A stretch of 45,059 nt of DNA from assembly GCA_030627265.1 (NCBI GenBank), contig DAOUSK010000004.1:1-45059 (forward strand), written 5' to 3'. Positions 23,664-31,828 of the stretch are shown here, piece by piece (position 1 is the stretch's first letter; every line of letters starts with the position of its first letter). This DNA is from Methylococcaceae bacterium. GTDB taxonomy: Bacteria; Pseudomonadota; Gammaproteobacteria; Methylococcales; Methylomonadaceae. Under the pieces are notes generated by a model. That model did no database searches and was not told the origin of the DNA. It saw only the letters and a program-made list of their open reading frames with translations. The position numbers and the translations under genes were made by a program.

Positions 23664-24347
23664 TTAGTTTTTAGACACTTGATTATTAATAAGGGCGTGC
23701 TCTAAAGCGTTCAGGCGCTCTTCTGTGCCTATATCCATCCAAAAGCCATCATGTAGTGCACCGGTTATTTGTTGATTTGTCATCGCTGCTTTTAATAAGG
23801 GGGCGAGAGCAGATTTCCCCGGCTTTAAATTAGCAAATAATTCAGGGCGGTAAAGTCCAATACCACTAAAAGTAAATTTGATGTCATCAAAGCTATTGAG
23901 ATGATGATTTGTGCTGATTGCAAAGTCGCCAGCAGGGTTGTGCCTTGGATTTTTAATTAAAACCAAATGCGCTAATTTTACTTGTTGATGGGTTAAAGTC
24001 TGCAAAGGAAAATCACAAGCAATATCAGCATTGATCACTAAAAAAGGCTCAGAGCCTAATAAAGGCAGTGCTTTTTTAATGCCTCCAGCCGTTTCTAAGC
24101 CTGATTCGCCTTCATGGGAGTATTGAATATTAGCTTGATAGCGCGATCCATTGCCTAAATAAGCTTCAATTTGTTCACCTAAATAAGCTAAATTGATGAC
24201 GATATCAACAATGCCTGCTTTAACTAATGCTTCAATGGTATATTCAATTAAGGCTTTGTTATTAGCTTTTAATAAAGGTTTAGGTGTGCTGTCAGTTAAA
24301 GGGCGTAAGCGTTCGCCGCGACCCGCAGCTAAAATCATCGCTTTCAT
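23664..24347 (-). CDS. murU: N-acetylmuramate-1-phosphate uridylyltransferase (MurU-like nucleotidyltransferase)
   Basis: MKAMILAAGRGERLRPLTDSTPKPLLKANNKALIEYTIEAL; coupled to the AmgK-like kinase gene. Confidence 0.85.
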   Translation of the reverse strand: MKAMILAAGRGERLRPLTDSTPKPLLKANNKALIEYTIEALVKAGIVDIVINLAYLGEQIEAYLGNGSRYQANIQYSHEGESGLETAGGIKKALPLLGSEPFLVINADIACDFPLQTLTHQQVKLAHLVLIKNPRHNPAGDFAISTNHHLNSFDDIKFTFSGIGLYRPELFANLKPGKSALAPLLKAAMTNQQITGALHDGFWMDIGTEERLNALEHALINNQVSKN

Positions 24348-25354
24348 AAATGAGATTGGCTAGCAGGTAGTGCGGTCTTGGTTAAAAAATCATGAAATTC
24401 TGCTAATTCAGGATAATTTTTACTCACATTAATTACATAATTCAGGGTACGAGGAATATCTGCTAAATAAGCATTTTTACCATCGCGGATATTCAGGCGC
24501 GAGAAAATTCCAATGGCTTTTAAGTGTCGTTGAATGCCCATTAAATCAAAATCACGCTTGAAATCAGCATAAGAGCATTGAATTAAATTAACGGCCTGTA
24601 ATTGCAAAAAATACTCATTTAGTAATTGGTCTATTTTAACTTCAGGCCAAGCGATGTAACAATCCCTTAATAGCGATACAGCATCATAAGTAATAGGGCC
24701 AATGACCGCATCTTGAAAATCAATAATGCCTAGGTTTCTATCGCTAATATGCATTAGATTGCGTGAGTGATAGTCTCTATGTACGCAAACTTGTTTTTGC
24801 TGACTTGCGCTATCAATTAAAAATTGCTCAGCCTTATTTAAGAGTTTAAGTTGCTTACTTGTTAGTTGTATCTGGCACTGTTGCTGTAAAAACCAATCAG
24901 AAAATAAAGCTAGTTCTGTTTTTAATAGTTCTGGGCTGTAGTGCGGCAAAAAGCAGTCTTTAGGTGAAATGTTTTTTTGTAAATTAACCAAAGCTTTTAA
25001 AGCGCTGCGATATAAAACATCCACGGATGATTCATTGAGGCGGTCAAGTAAATTGACCGGGCCAAAATCTTCTAATAATAAAAATCCTCGCTGAATATCT
25101 TTAGCAATAATATCGGGCACGTTGGCTTCAGCTAGTCTAAATAATTCAGCAACATTAATAAATGGCTGAGTATCTTCTTTTTCAGGCGGGGCATCCATGA
25201 CAATAAAATAACGATTATTATGAGAAATCCTAAAGTAACGCCTAAAACTTGCGTCGCTGGATGCGGGCTCAAACTGGCTAATGTCTAAACCGAGGTCGTT
25301 TCGTAACCAGTTAATGATTTGTTGAGATCTGTCATCGCTAAGTATCATCGTCAT
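24344..25354 (-). CDS. amgK: Aminoglycoside phosphotransferase-family anomeric sugar kinase (AmgK-like)
   Basis: EPASSDASFRRYFRI, VCVHRDYHSRNLMHISDRNLGIIDFQDAVIGPITYDAVSLLRDCY; divergent from lptD, the arrangement known in other Gammaproteobacteria. Confidence 0.85.
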   Translation of the reverse strand: MTMILSDDRSQQIINWLRNDLGLDISQFEPASSDASFRRYFRISHNNRYFIVMDAPPEKEDTQPFINVAELFRLAEANVPDIIAKDIQRGFLLLEDFGPVNLLDRLNESSVDVLYRSALKALVNLQKNISPKDCFLPHYSPELLKTELALFSDWFLQQQCQIQLTSKQLKLLNKAEQFLIDSASQQKQVCVHRDYHSRNLMHISDRNLGIIDFQDAVIGPITYDAVSLLRDCYIAWPEVKIDQLLNEYFLQLQAVNLIQCSYADFKRDFDLMGIQRHLKAIGIFSRLNIRDGKNAYLADIPRTLNYVINVSKNYPELAEFHDFLTKTALPASQSHL

Positions 25355-25445
25355 TCTTTTATAAAGCGCCTGAAAAATTAAGGTAAAATGTTCGGTTCAA
25401 TCATTTTATTCTATTTCACTTCTTTTCTATAGGTCTTTAGTAACG

Positions 25446-27863
25446 ATGTTACCCGGTTTAGTTTTTGTGCTGATTAGCACCTCTTTTGTCGTGCTCAATA
25501 CGGCGGAAGCTAAAGCTGAAGACTGGCAATGCGAAAAAACACGACCCACAGGTGAATTAAAGTGTGCCTCATCAGAAAGAAATATTACTAAAAACAACCA
25601 GTCTACAATAAAAATAGAGAGTTCGAGCGGCTTGTTTGCTGATTCTTATAGTAAAGCAGAAGAAAAGGTTTTTCGGCAGTTGCAATTAGAATTTGATGAA
25701 AACCCGTGGGGAATGTGTGCCTCAGTGAATCACTCTGGCCCTCAATTTCAGCGAAATAAAGTAACCAGTACTGAAACGGCAACAGAAGTGTATGCGGATG
25801 TTTTAGAAGCTTTTGATCAAGATGTTATTAATTTTTCCGGCGATGTGGATTTTTTGAGTGAAGGGCGCAGCGCGCTCTCCAATCGAGTGGATTACAATAA
25901 AAGATCAGAGAATGTCGCTTTATTTGGTGATGTGATTTATAAAGACTCAGGTATGGCGCTTTATAGCAGCTCTACAAAAATGGAGCTGAATAACAATAAG
26001 TCCTTATTAAGGAATGCTTTATTTGTTTTGTCGCCAGGAGCAAAACGAGGAAAAGCGGATGTTATTTACCGTGAAACACCTGCTTTAAGTCGGCTTGAAA
26101 ACCCAAGTTACACTTTTTGCCCCCCAGGAAATCAAGACTGGGTTTTGCATGCGTCTAAAATGAAAATTAATGATGAAACAGGGCGCGCAGCAGTACGAAA
26201 TGGTTGGCTAGAAGTTAAAAATGTGCCTGTGATGTATATTCCGTATGGCTCATTCCCAACAGATGATAGACGGAAAACAGGCTTATTGATGCCAGCAGTT
26301 GGCTTTTCAGGCCGAAATGGTTTTGATTTCACACAACCTTTTTATTGGAATATGGCGCCAAATTATGATTTAACGGTTTTTCCTCGTTATATGGGGAATC
26401 GTGGTTTTATGTTCGGTGCAGATTTTCGTTATTTAGGAGAGTCTTACCAAGGGGAATTTCAATTTGAAGTTTTACCTGAAGACAAGCAGGCTAAAAGTGA
26501 TGGAACAGCGCCGGCTACACGCTGGGGAGTGAGGTTTCAGCATTCAGCTAAGCCAATTAAGCATTTAAATTTATCTTTAGATGCAAAGTATGTGTCGGAT
26601 AAATCTTATTTTTCAGATTTAGAGGGTAATTTGGATACCACGAGTCGACGTCGTTATTTGGCGAGTAATGCGGATGCAAAGTACAATTTAGGCTGGATGA
26701 ATTTAGGTATTCATGTCGATAACTATCAAAATATAGATCCATCGCGTGATGATACAAGTCTGCCCTATAGGCGATTGCCACAAATAACATTTAATATGCA
26801 TCGCTCCATGGATGAGTTTCCCATGGATTTAGAGTGGAAGAGTGAGTATGTTTATTTTCAACGACATATTTCGGATGGTAAAACAGAAGCTCAGCGTTTA
26901 AATATAAAGCCCGCTATCAGTTTTCCGGTTTCTTCTCAATCAGGTTTTGTTATTCCTAAAATCGCCTTACAACATACACAGTATTGGCTAGATGAAAATA
27001 ATACCAATCGTACTTTAAGTAAAACCTTACCCATTGTTTCCGTGGATTCAGGCTTATTTTTTGAGCGTGATTTTGGCAAGTTAAGACACACGGTAGAACC
27101 TCGTTTATACTATTTATATGTACCGTATGTTGATCAAAGCGATTTACCTAACTTTGACACCTCTTTAGCAGACTTTAATACCGGACAGTTATTCAGGGAT
27201 AACACCTTTACCGGTGCTGATAAAACTCAAAATACCAATCAGATAACCACGGCTTTAACAACACGAATCGTTGATGAAGGTCGAGATCTGTTAAAATTGA
27301 CAGTCGGTGAAATATTTTATTTTGCTGATAGAAAAGTGGGCTTAACCGCTAATGAGCATAATGATGAGCTGCTATCTAATCTTATTACAGAAGTGAGTAG
27401 TGACTTAAGTGATGAATTAAGGTTAACCAGTAGTATTCAGTATAGCCATAAAGAAGCCGCAATAGATCGTGGTGCAGCTAATCTTAGTTATCATGGCCAT
27501 GAAAATCACCTGATTAATATAGGTTACCGATACCGATTAGAAAGAAGTGGACAAAAAGCGCAAGAGCAAATTAGTGCCTCTATTATGTGGCCTATTTATG
27601 ATAGCTGGAGTGCCATTGGCGCTTATCGACATTCATTGAGAGACCGTATGCCATTAGAGTATTTTTTTGGTGTAGAAAAAGACAGTTGCTGCTGGCGTAT
27701 TCGTGTTCTTGCCAAGCAGGATATTCGCAATACAACAGTAGAGACAAAGAAAGACATGTCAATTGTCTTTCAATTTGAATTAAAAGGATTTACTAGCCTA
27801 GGAACTAAGTTAGATGAATTTTTGTTTGAAAACATTGCTGGTTATAGTAAATCTAATGATTAA
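25446..27863 (+). CDS. lptD: LPS-assembly protein LptD
   Basis: CPPGNQDWVLHASKMKINDETGRAAVRNGWLEVKNVPVMYIPYGSFPTDDRRKTGLLMPAVGFSGRNGFDFTQPFYWNMAPNYDLTVFPRYM; followed by surA. Confidence 0.95.
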   Translation: MLPGLVFVLISTSFVVLNTAEAKAEDWQCEKTRPTGELKCASSERNITKNNQSTIKIESSSGLFADSYSKAEEKVFRQLQLEFDENPWGMCASVNHSGPQFQRNKVTSTETATEVYADVLEAFDQDVINFSGDVDFLSEGRSALSNRVDYNKRSENVALFGDVIYKDSGMALYSSSTKMELNNNKSLLRNALFVLSPGAKRGKADVIYRETPALSRLENPSYTFCPPGNQDWVLHASKMKINDETGRAAVRNGWLEVKNVPVMYIPYGSFPTDDRRKTGLLMPAVGFSGRNGFDFTQPFYWNMAPNYDLTVFPRYMGNRGFMFGADFRYLGESYQGEFQFEVLPEDKQAKSDGTAPATRWGVRFQHSAKPIKHLNLSLDAKYVSDKSYFSDLEGNLDTTSRRRYLASNADAKYNLGWMNLGIHVDNYQNIDPSRDDTSLPYRRLPQITFNMHRSMDEFPMDLEWKSEYVYFQRHISDGKTEAQRLNIKPAISFPVSSQSGFVIPKIALQHTQYWLDENNTNRTLSKTLPIVSVDSGLFFERDFGKLRHTVEPRLYYLYVPYVDQSDLPNFDTSLADFNTGQLFRDNTFTGADKTQNTNQITTALTTRIVDEGRDLLKLTVGEIFYFADRKVGLTANEHNDELLSNLITEVSSDLSDELRLTSSIQYSHKEAAIDRGAANLSYHGHENHLINIGYRYRLERSGQKAQEQISASIMWPIYDSWSAIGAYRHSLRDRMPLEYFFGVEKDSCCWRIRVLAKQDIRNTTVETKKDMSIVFQFELKGFTSLGTKLDEFLFENIAGYSKSND

Positions 27864-27869
27864 TAAAAA

Positions 27870-29165
27870 ATGAAACAATTTATAAAAAAAATAGCTCACA
27901 TAGCGTTACTTATTGCTGCTTTTAATGTTGCGGCAGCTGATTATTTAGATGGTATCGCTGCTATTGTTGAAGAGGATGTTATTTTAGATAGTGAACTAGC
28001 TAGTGAGGTGCAAACCATTGTTGCCCGCTTACAAAGGCAGAAAATTCAGCTACCAGAAAAAGAAATTTTATATAAACAAGTCTTAGAAAGACTGATTATT
28101 GATAAATTACAAACACAACTTGCACAACGTGCAGGCATGCAACTTAGTGATGAATATGTCAATATTTCTATTGAAAAGATAGCAAGAAGTAACCGAATGA
28201 GCATGGAAACCTTTAAAGCTTCATTGGCAGCAGAAGGCATGAGTTTTGCTGATTTCCAAAAAAATGTGCGTAAAGAAATTACCATTAATCAGCTGCGCAG
28301 CCGTGAAATTGGTGCGCGGATTAAAGTGTCAGACCAAGCGGTTAAGCATTATTTAGAAACGACAATGAGCGAGTCTGATAGAAGTGTGCAGTATTTAGTG
28401 GGACATATATTATTAAGCTTACCTGAAGGTGCTGATGCAACAAGTATTCAGGAGAAAACTGCCGAAGCAAATAGTATTGTTGAGCAATTAAGAGGCGGGA
28501 CGGACTTCAAACAGCTATCCGTTGCTAAGTCAGAATCTGATACCGCGTTAAAAGGCGGAGATTTAGGCTGGAGAACACTTAGGCAACTGCCTAGCTTATT
28601 TGTTGATGCGGTTAAAGGTATGAGAAAAGGAGAGGTTGCGGCACCGATTCGTAGTCCAAGTGGTTTTCATATTCTGCAATTATTAGATAGCACAGGTAAT
28701 GAATTACATATTATTAGCGAGACACATGTGCGACATATTCTCATTAAAACTAATGAATTAATTAATGATGATGAAGCTAAAAAACGCTTACAAATAATTC
28801 TTGCTCGTATTGCAGATGGTGATGATTTTGCCGTTTTAGCTAAAGCAAATTCTAAAGACACAGGTTCTGCAATAAAAGGGGGAGATTTAAGCTGGGTCGT
28901 ACCTGGTTTACTTGTTCCTGCTTTTGAAAAATCGATGGATGGTTTAGCTATCAATGAGATTAGTCAGCCAGTACAAACACAGTTTGGCTGGCATATTATT
29001 CAAGTGTTAGGGCGCCGCTCTAAAGATAATACTGAGAAGTTCAAATTTGAACAAGCGCGTGATGAGCTTCGCCAACGTAAAATTGAAGAAGAAACCGAGC
29101 TTTGGTTAAGGCGCTTAAGAGATGAAGCTTATGTGGATATACGTTTAGGGATGTTGGATGAATAA
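27870..29165 (+). CDS. surA: Periplasmic chaperone / peptidylprolyl isomerase SurA
   Basis: DGIAAIVEEDVILDSELASEV; two parvulin domains (VGHILLSLPE...GGDLGW; VRHILIKTNE...GGDLSW). Confidence 0.95.
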   Translation: MKQFIKKIAHIALLIAAFNVAAADYLDGIAAIVEEDVILDSELASEVQTIVARLQRQKIQLPEKEILYKQVLERLIIDKLQTQLAQRAGMQLSDEYVNISIEKIARSNRMSMETFKASLAAEGMSFADFQKNVRKEITINQLRSREIGARIKVSDQAVKHYLETTMSESDRSVQYLVGHILLSLPEGADATSIQEKTAEANSIVEQLRGGTDFKQLSVAKSESDTALKGGDLGWRTLRQLPSLFVDAVKGMRKGEVAAPIRSPSGFHILQLLDSTGNELHIISETHVRHILIKTNELINDDEAKKRLQIILARIADGDDFAVLAKANSKDTGSAIKGGDLSWVVPGLLVPAFEKSMDGLAINEISQPVQTQFGWHIIQVLGRRSKDNTEKFKFEQARDELRQRKIEEETELWLRRLRDEAYVDIRLGMLDE

Positions 29166-29745
29166 GCGCTCGATCAGTTTAGTGCTAGAGCAACAAGTTG
29201 AACTGGAAAAACAACTGAAGTGCATTATCGCGAAAGAAGACTTAACGGCGAATAAAGCCTTATTAGAGGTGAGTGCACGCCACTTAAAATTAGACTACTT
29301 AGATTTAGCGGCTGCTTTACTTTGTCTTAACCAGCCCAAAAAACAGATGCTGACGGATGTAGAAACAAACAAGCTCGTTCAAGAAAAGCAAAGATCCTAT
29401 GAATTGATACATGCACAAATGGTGCGTTACCGTATTGAAATCGGCCGAGTACATAAACTCACTGTGCCATTAATTAAAGAAATATTAGTTGATATTTCAG
29501 GTGTAGAGCACCGAAAAATTGGCTATATTGATATGTTTGAGCACTATACCGTGCTTAGTTTACCTGCGGGTATGCCAGTTGATATATTGCAATCATTAAA
29601 AGAAGTCACCGTTCAGGATAAAGAGTTTGATATTAAACGACTCAATGGTTCAGGTAAAAAATACCGCCATGAGAAATCAACCAGGCGCGGTACACGGCGA
29701 CATTTCCTTTCGTCTAGCAAAAAAGAAGCACATCAAGGGAAGTAA
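29158..29745 (+). CDS. Stand-alone DeaD/CsdA C-terminal-like protein with DbpA-type RNA-binding domain, no helicase core
   Basis: RYRIEIGRVHKLTVPLIKEILVDISGVEHRKIGYIDMFEHYTVLSLPAGMPVDILQSLKEVTVQDKEFDIKRLNG resembles the DbpA RBD; basic tail. ATGAATAA overlap with the surA stop; no DEAD-box motifs. Confidence 0.75.
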   Translation: MNKRSISLVLEQQVELEKQLKCIIAKEDLTANKALLEVSARHLKLDYLDLAAALLCLNQPKKQMLTDVETNKLVQEKQRSYELIHAQMVRYRIEIGRVHKLTVPLIKEILVDISGVEHRKIGYIDMFEHYTVLSLPAGMPVDILQSLKEVTVQDKEFDIKRLNGSGKKYRHEKSTRRGTRRHFLSSSKKEAHQGK

Positions 29746-29793
29746 ATCGCTTAGGCAACTCGCAACAATTAGATAATTAACCCAATAAAAAGT

Positions 29794-30945
29794 ATGAATG
29801 ATATCCAGTTTATAGATACAGCAGATGAGTTACATCGCTTATGCCAAGAAATGAAACAAGAACCTTGGTTAGCAATGGATACAGAATTTTTACGGGAAAA
29901 AACTTATTACCCGAAATTTTGCCTATTACAAATTGCGACACTCGATTGGGTTGCTTGTATCGATCCGATCGCATTAGAAGGGCAGATGGATGAGTTATTT
30001 AGCATTATTAATGATCCTACCATTATAAAAATTTTACACTCGTGTCGCCAAGATGTGGAAATTTTCTACCAGCTCTCAGGGAAATTACCTCGCCCCCTTT
30101 TTGACACCCAATTGGTCGCGCCATTATTGGGCTACCAAGAAAATCCAGGCTATGCGATGTTAGTTTCTGGTTTTCTTAATATCAATTTAAGCAAAACCCA
30201 TACACGCACTGACTGGAGCCAACGCCCACTTTCTCCTGAACAAATTCAATATGCGGCTGATGATGTTATTTATTTAGCAAAGATTTATTGCATGATGCAA
30301 GAGCAGCTTAAAACGCTAGGGCGTGAAAATTGGCTGAATGATGATTTCGAGCAATTATTAAACCCTGATTTGTATGACATCCCTGCAGAAAAGGCATGGT
30401 TGAAAATTCGCGGTAAAAATAAACTAACGGGTAAGCAACTTGCCATCGTACAAGTTTTAGCCGAGTGGCGCGAAGAAGCCGCGAAAAGAAGTGATAGACC
30501 TAAAAACTGGATTGTTCGTGATGAGCATATTATGGACATGGCAAAATTACAGCCAACGGACATTCAAGCCTTATCTCAAATACGCGGTGTTACCGATGGC
30601 TTTGTTAAGCGTAGTGGAAAAAAGGTTTGTGAGTTAATAAAAATGGCGCAAGATTTACCCGCGCTACAGGTGAAATCTAAATCTAAATCAGGTAAAAAGA
30701 GCCAAAAACAAGAAGCTGTATTAGACATATTAAGTGGCGTGGTTCGTTTACGTGCTGGTGATAATTCATTAAATCCGGTTATTTTAGCTACCCGAAAAGA
30801 TTTAGAGGCTTTGATAGAAGGCAATGAAGAATGCGTTTTATTAAGTGGTTGGCGTTACAGTATGGTTGGTGAAGAACTACAAAGAATATTACAAGGAAAA
30901 ACCACCTTAAGCGTGGACAATAACGATGTTTTTTTTCATGAGTAG
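29794..30945 (+). CDS. rnd: Ribonuclease D
   Basis: PWLAMDTEFLREKTYYPKFCLLQIAT, LHSCRQDVEIFYQLSGKLPRPLFDTQ, TDWSQRPLSPEQIQYAADDVIYL; HRDC-type C-terminus. Confidence 0.95.
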   Translation: MNDIQFIDTADELHRLCQEMKQEPWLAMDTEFLREKTYYPKFCLLQIATLDWVACIDPIALEGQMDELFSIINDPTIIKILHSCRQDVEIFYQLSGKLPRPLFDTQLVAPLLGYQENPGYAMLVSGFLNINLSKTHTRTDWSQRPLSPEQIQYAADDVIYLAKIYCMMQEQLKTLGRENWLNDDFEQLLNPDLYDIPAEKAWLKIRGKNKLTGKQLAIVQVLAEWREEAAKRSDRPKNWIVRDEHIMDMAKLQPTDIQALSQIRGVTDGFVKRSGKKVCELIKMAQDLPALQVKSKSKSGKKSQKQEAVLDILSGVVRLRAGDNSLNPVILATRKDLEALIEGNEECVLLSGWRYSMVGEELQRILQGKTTLSVDNNDVFFHE

Positions 30946-30950
30946 TTGAT

Positions 30951-30990
30951 GTTACGCGCTTAGGTGTAGTGCGCTCTACGCATCCTACGC
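30951..30990. repeat. Half-copy of family A palindromic repeat
   Basis: TAGGTGTAGTGCGCTCTACGCATCCTACGC resembles the right arm of 208..312. Confidence 0.5.
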
Positions 30991-31158
30991 AAAACTTGGC
31001 ATCAATATGAAAATAATCATGTTCGGGGTTTAAGTGTTTATATATTGGGATTGGTATTACTTAATAGAAATCAATTCAAGAAGAAAGAAAAATCTGATTT
31101 AAGCCTAAGCTGAATCAGTACAAAAATATATACAGTGTGCTAACCAGTAGGTAAATCA

Positions 31159-31828
31159 ATGAATAATGATATTAAAAAAAAATCACGAGAAGAAATTGCT
31201 ATTGCATATAAATCAGAGCCTTGGTGGTATGACCTGAGGGGTTTTTTTATTTTAACGTTTGCTTATCGCAGTACACTTTGGGAGCAAGTCCGTTTCTTTG
31301 GTGACAATATTAAAGAAAATCACCTAGAAGTTGCTATTGGATCTGGATCTTTATTTGATATTATTCTTAAATGGCGTAAATGGAAAAAAATGCCCCAAAC
31401 AAATATTATAGGTATTGATTACGCTGAAGCAATGTTACAAGGAGCAAAAAAACGATTTTCAAAACGTAAGAATATCGAGCTAAAGCTCGCTGATGTGGCT
31501 GAATTACCATTATCCAGATAACTCCTTTGATTCGATAAATATAGCTAATGCTGTTCACTGCTTTCCAGATGTTGATTCTGCGTTTGTTGAGGTTATGCGT
31601 GTTTTAAAGCCTGAAGGAATAATGGCTGCCAATGTACTACTTTACCCACAGAACCTTGGGGTATTAGAAAAATTAGCGACAAAAATAAATCATTGGGGCA
31701 TCAAAAAAGGAATATTGGTTTCTCCTTATCAGCCGGAAGATATTCGAAGTCGCTTGCAAGCCGTAGGAGCAACAATATTGAGTGAGAAAATCTCTGGCAA
31801 TACTTACAATATTTTTGCTAAAAAGTGA
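31159..31828 (+). pseudogene. Class I SAM-dependent methyltransferase, frameshifted
   Basis: 31159..31521 carries the SAM-binding half (EVAIGSGSLFDIIL, GIDYAEAMLQGAKKRF); 31493..31828 continues in another frame (PDNSFDSINIANAVHCFPDVDSAFVEVMRVLKPEGI). Removing one T near 31511-31513 restores ...ELPLPDNSFDS... Confidence 0.8.

Follow-up and report, generated by a model that had tools for sequence, protein, structure and literature searches.

A free-standing protein resembling the C-terminal extension of DeaD/CsdA helicases is encoded directly behind surA in the Methylomonadaceae

The closest described counterparts of the protein reported here are the C-terminal regions of the helicases DeaD/CsdA, Hera, YxiN, and DbpA. 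In Hera, a dimerization domain forms a stable dimer, the core of the RNA-binding domain (RBD) binds single-stranded RNA, and a basic tail binds the duplex stem (PMC3695512). The C-terminal domain of YxiN binds RNA by itself, according to a study (Kossen 2002) as it is cited in PMC6178137, and CsdA is reported not to bind hairpin 92 of the 23S rRNA (PMC8190605). The protein described in this study (hereafter X) has the dimerization domain, RBD, and basic tail in the order seen in DeaD/CsdA and also found together in Hera, and its RBD is RRM-like as in Hera, YxiN, and DbpA. However, the latter RBDs are parts of helicases whereas X stands alone, and the RNA-contacting residues of helix 1 differ in X. 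Compared to DeaD/CsdA, X has neither the RecA core nor the ATPase, forms a separate clade, and has lost the GAIAN motif of helix 1. A product of Treponema pallidum, TPANIC_1029, is annotated as ‘DbpA RNA binding domain’, apparently apart from the DEAD/DEAH helicase in the same table (PMC8525777), although this organism belongs to a different phylum and the likeness to X is one of annotation alone. The parts of X are already known, and proteins annotated by a DbpA-type RBD apart from a helicase exist elsewhere. A targeted literature search for a standalone DbpA-type domain found none, and no literature on the methanotroph gene was found in a search covering few subscription journals.

The gene for X is located in a 45,059-nucleotide stretch of a Methylomonadaceae genome (contig DAOUSK010000004.1, assembly GCA_030627265.1), referred to as the window (Table 1). 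The original prediction had described X, based on the sequence of the window, as a DeaD/CsdA tail consisting of a post-core helical region, a DbpA-type RBD, and a basic tail, with no helicase core and with a start overlapping the surA stop codon. The overlap is borne out by ATGAATAA at positions 29158–29165, where the ATG of X and the stop codon of surA share 8 nt, and no terminator-like site is listed in the gap between X and rnd. All three predicted parts were recovered, and the helical region corresponds to the dimerization domain of DeaD (PF25399). The window copy of this domain scores slightly below the Pfam cut-off; among the 19 family members scanned, PF25399 and PF03880 were both matched at E ≤ 0.01 in every one, with a best E-value of 8e-9 for PF25399, and the AAAL motif of the dimerization domain is invariant in alignment A1.

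Table 1. Positions of X, its predicted domains, and the neighboring genes in the window.
Feature	Position	Strand	Basis or remark
lptD	25446..27863	+	PF04453, 314 bits; upstream of surA
surA	27870..29165	+	SurA_N and rotamase domains (Pfam/NCBIfam); upstream neighbor of X
X, free-standing DeaD C-terminal-extension protein	29158..29745	+	Intact ORF, 195 aa; hhalign; dN/dS
DeaD_dimer (dimerization) domain, residues 16–64	29203..29349	+	PF25399, 21.1 bits (cut-off 23)
DbpA-type RNA-binding domain (RBD, RRM-like), residues 90–160	29425..29637	+	PF03880, 49.6 bits (cut-off 25.6)
RBD helix-1 segment EILVD, residues 108–112	29479..29493	+	Replaces the DeaD-invariant GAIAN
Basic C-terminal tail, residues 163–195	29644..29742	+	pI 11.5, net charge +9
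rnd (RNase D)	29794..30945	+	TIGR01388, 363.7 bits; starts 48 bp past X

The Pfam scan of X detected the RBD and the dimerization domain only. The two RecA-like domains of a DEAD-box helicase, with DEAD and other SF2 motifs, are missing: besides the Pfam result, a DeaD RecA-core profile had no match in the six frames of positions 24000–31200. ATP-dependent unwinding is not expected of X because the ATPase domain is absent. Members of the X family have a median pI of 9.56, and most carry a K/R-rich tail. The copies read from genus g16 (loci L049 and L152–L156) have lost the dimerization domain while keeping the RBD and tail, and profile matches in the remaining g16 genomes agree with this loss; dimer formation is thus not required everywhere.

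In a profile-profile comparison (hhalign), residues 12–166 of X aligned with DeaD positions 402–573 with a probability of 99.9 and an E-value of 6e-33, and the identity to the C-terminal extension of full-length DeaD was 23% across 154 columns. Among solved structures, the CsdA RRM (5b88) is nearest to X, and the RBD of X matched it with E-values of 4e-6 by phmmer and 3.6e-13 by profile search. The structure prediction for X was weak (mean pLDDT 53.7) because its alignment consisted of three close sequences only. The RBD part of this low-confidence model nevertheless has the order of elements of an RRM (beta-alpha-beta-beta-alpha-beta), and Foldseek returned the CsdA RRM 5b88 as the top PDB match, followed by DbpA. 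The E-values of these matches exceeded 0.001, so the structural support is weak and the case is carried by the sequence. The proposed DbpA-type fold was not contradicted, with the RBD part of the model being closest to the CsdA RRM.

Orthologues with the same short architecture are present well beyond the source genome, in 125 of the 127 Methylomonadaceae genomes, including single-contig assemblies. The nearest named relatives are Methyloprofundus MAGs and a methanotrophic gill symbiont of Bathymodiolus, on which basis the family was assigned as Methylomonadaceae. The two genomes without X (G025 and G208) belong to genus g9, and a remnant was sought downstream of their surA genes and not found; the third g9 member, G195, has X. 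The absence of both gene and remnant from these two genomes indicates that X is not essential in all members. Outside the family, there was no short X-like gene among the matches listed for the other families of the order or for the class sample (365 genomes outside the order), a search in which a weak short copy could be missed, and none in the complete match list of the phylum sample (299 genomes, class members included). The matches listed outside the family consisted of long helicase frames and, where assemblies were fragmented, a small number of shorter frames, and genomes with two matches had both in one helicase, except for a weak 75-aa partial match in G508.

Three candidates for a standalone RBD outside the family were rejected. 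A 196-aa frame in G245 (L183, 1759–2349), which retains HRIGRTGRAG, derives from the 3' end of a disrupted dbpA-like helicase gene, and a fragment of this kind could mimic a standalone RBD in domain counts. The short PF03880 frames in G262 (82 aa) and G269 (244 aa) are both located near contig starts. Searches of the plasmid and phage collections yielded helicases only and no standalone copy of X, and horizontal spread by this route was also rejected.

In a tree of 21 X sequences and 40 DeaD C-terminal regions, all X sequences fell into a single clade (support 100/100), and a long branch separates them from all DeaD sequences, those encoded by X-bearing genomes included. This topology fits one origin followed by vertical descent. 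The dN/dS values of X in close pairs (0.08–0.11) are near those of surA and rnd. The deaD gene of the source genome is found on a separate contig as a 346-aa frame cut by the contig end, and is intact in sister genomes. The idea that a local deaD was recently truncated or frameshifted was rejected, as surA fills the upstream DNA, no remnant of the core is present, and deaD lies on another contig. The earlier view that X is not a simple local truncation holds, and the helicase-less DeaD tail is free-standing, conserved, and under purifying selection. Judged from these comparisons, X is old and has been kept by selection. It appears to have arisen once from DeaD/CsdA, no later than the root of the family, probably when the 3' end of a deaD gene was copied to the place behind surA.

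Column counts in 76 X and 39 DeaD sequences revealed a consistent change in helix 1 of the RBD. The DeaD motif GAIAN is nearly invariant, with G, A, and N each present in 39/39 sequences, whereas a GAIAN/GTIAK-type pattern is absent in 76/76 X sequences, which mostly have xVLVE instead. Position 108 of X is mostly K, D, Q, or N, position 109 is V, I, or L, position 111 is V or I, and position 112 is E or D in 64 of the 76. In YxiN, residues G423, T424, and K427 of the GTIAK motif lie against RNA, as do their counterparts in Hera (PMC3695512), and helix 1 of X was mapped to YxiN using a YxiN alignment together with that study. Losing the small residues and having an acid where YxiN has K427 could weaken or abolish RNA binding at this site. 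X has also gained conserved charged residues (K107, E112, E113, and R161), and R90 and R161 are near-invariant in X and missing from DeaD. The I-G-x-I loop, which binds guanine via main-chain atoms, is partly retained (I121 in 76/76, G122 in 38/76). On the aligned columns, the RBD of X is retained and its contact surface is new. Because the helix-1 contact residues are changed consistently, in every copy, the RNA preference of X should differ from that of DeaD, and a DeaD-like RNA specificity is not to be assumed.

Our tentative preference, held at a little below even confidence, is that X may bind RNA independently of ATP, usually as a dimer, and with a specificity unlike that of DeaD. X would be made together with SurA, as the 8-nt overlap in the source genus suggests, would dimerize through its helical domain, and would hold structured RNA without ATP through the RBD and basic tail, acting as an RNA-binding protein or chaperone. 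The chaperone role raised in the original prediction is a possibility. RNA binding by X, if it occurs, would place the protein among the core RNA-binding proteins of gammaproteobacterial methanotrophs, and the changed helix-1 motif makes its RNA recognition directly testable. X represents a natural experiment in splitting a helicase, in which the substrate-recognition half has been kept alone throughout the history of the family while the full helicase was also kept.

The main rival to this RNA-binding-protein reading is that X is a helicase-less partner of DeaD, forming a mixed dimer via the common dimerization domain and thereby retargeting or damping DeaD. CsdA and Hera act as dimers and dimerization aids unwinding (PMC7721647; PMC3695512), the dimerization domain occurs in all of the family members scanned, and a full-length DeaD was found in addition to X in nearly all of these members. 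However, with DeaD being widespread across the class, the co-occurrence carries little weight. The divergence of X from DeaD in the tree is large, and the retention of the RBD and tail in g16 after the loss of the dimerization domain speaks against pairing as the core function; we consider a DeaD partnership unlikely, albeit a serious contender. A more specific form, in which X is a motorless DeaD subunit whose altered RNA surface would redirect or gate the helicase within X-DeaD mixed dimers, coupled to SurA expression, appears rather improbable. Should X pair with DeaD, a DEAD-box enzyme would have a natural regulator that itself lacks the motor.

The helix-1 changes also bear on a second alternative, in which the RBD has turned into a protein-binding module, e.g., for ribosome assembly or the degradosome, with RNA contacted through the tail only. 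The disappearance of the DeaD-invariant RNA-contact residues from every X and the gain of the four conserved charged residues would suit such a change of partner. Since the I-G-x-I loop is partly kept and most members have a basic tail, we regard this as a distinctly doubtful explanation.

Among 60 X loci from more than 30 genera, surA is directly upstream in 60/60, while rnd comes next after X in 26, occurs within the fetched stretch in 42, and is absent from it in 18. Of the proposed surA-X-rnd synteny, the part involving surA is thus conserved and the part involving rnd is not: the link of X to surA is strong and that to RNase D is weak. Among the other families of the order whose loci were read, most have pdxA and then rsmA after surA (gene names from reading the translations), and pdxA is retained in the X-bearing family at a different location. 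At the root of this family, surA thus lost pdxA-rsmA as its neighbors and gained X, in either order.

The original prediction had proposed that X is a dedicated adaptor or RNA chaperone working with RNase D, as rnd closely follows X in the window (Table 1). The variable position of rnd (not next to X in 34/60 loci) against a constant surA, together with the chance that local gene order is mere inheritance, leaves this proposal highly unlikely, and a partnership with RNase D was rejected as the principal association of X. A comparably slim prospect is that X regulates the lptD-surA(-rnd) messenger locally by binding its own transcript; the invariant position after surA and the overlap in the source genus would accord with it, but this position could equally be inherited. 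The reading of X as a decaying fragment or assembly artefact, to which its short length and its loss in two g9 genomes might point, can be dismissed almost entirely given a dN/dS of approximately 0.1, its occurrence in 125/127 genomes including single-contig ones, and its single old clade.

Several further genes were observed around X. In several genera, X and rnd are often separated by a convergent gene of approximately 210 aa (L041, L048, L053, L135, L148, and L152). In genera g13 and g33, a same-strand gene of approximately 149–163 aa begins 15–49 bp past X and is possibly co-transcribed with it (L046, L132, L134, L137, L136, and L171). Past rnd in the window, two overlapping ORFs of 120 and 111 aa (31159–31828, forward strand) resemble one frameshift-split SAM-dependent methyltransferase, and the sister locus L034 has opposite-strand cobalamin-type genes in place of these methyltransferase-like ORFs.
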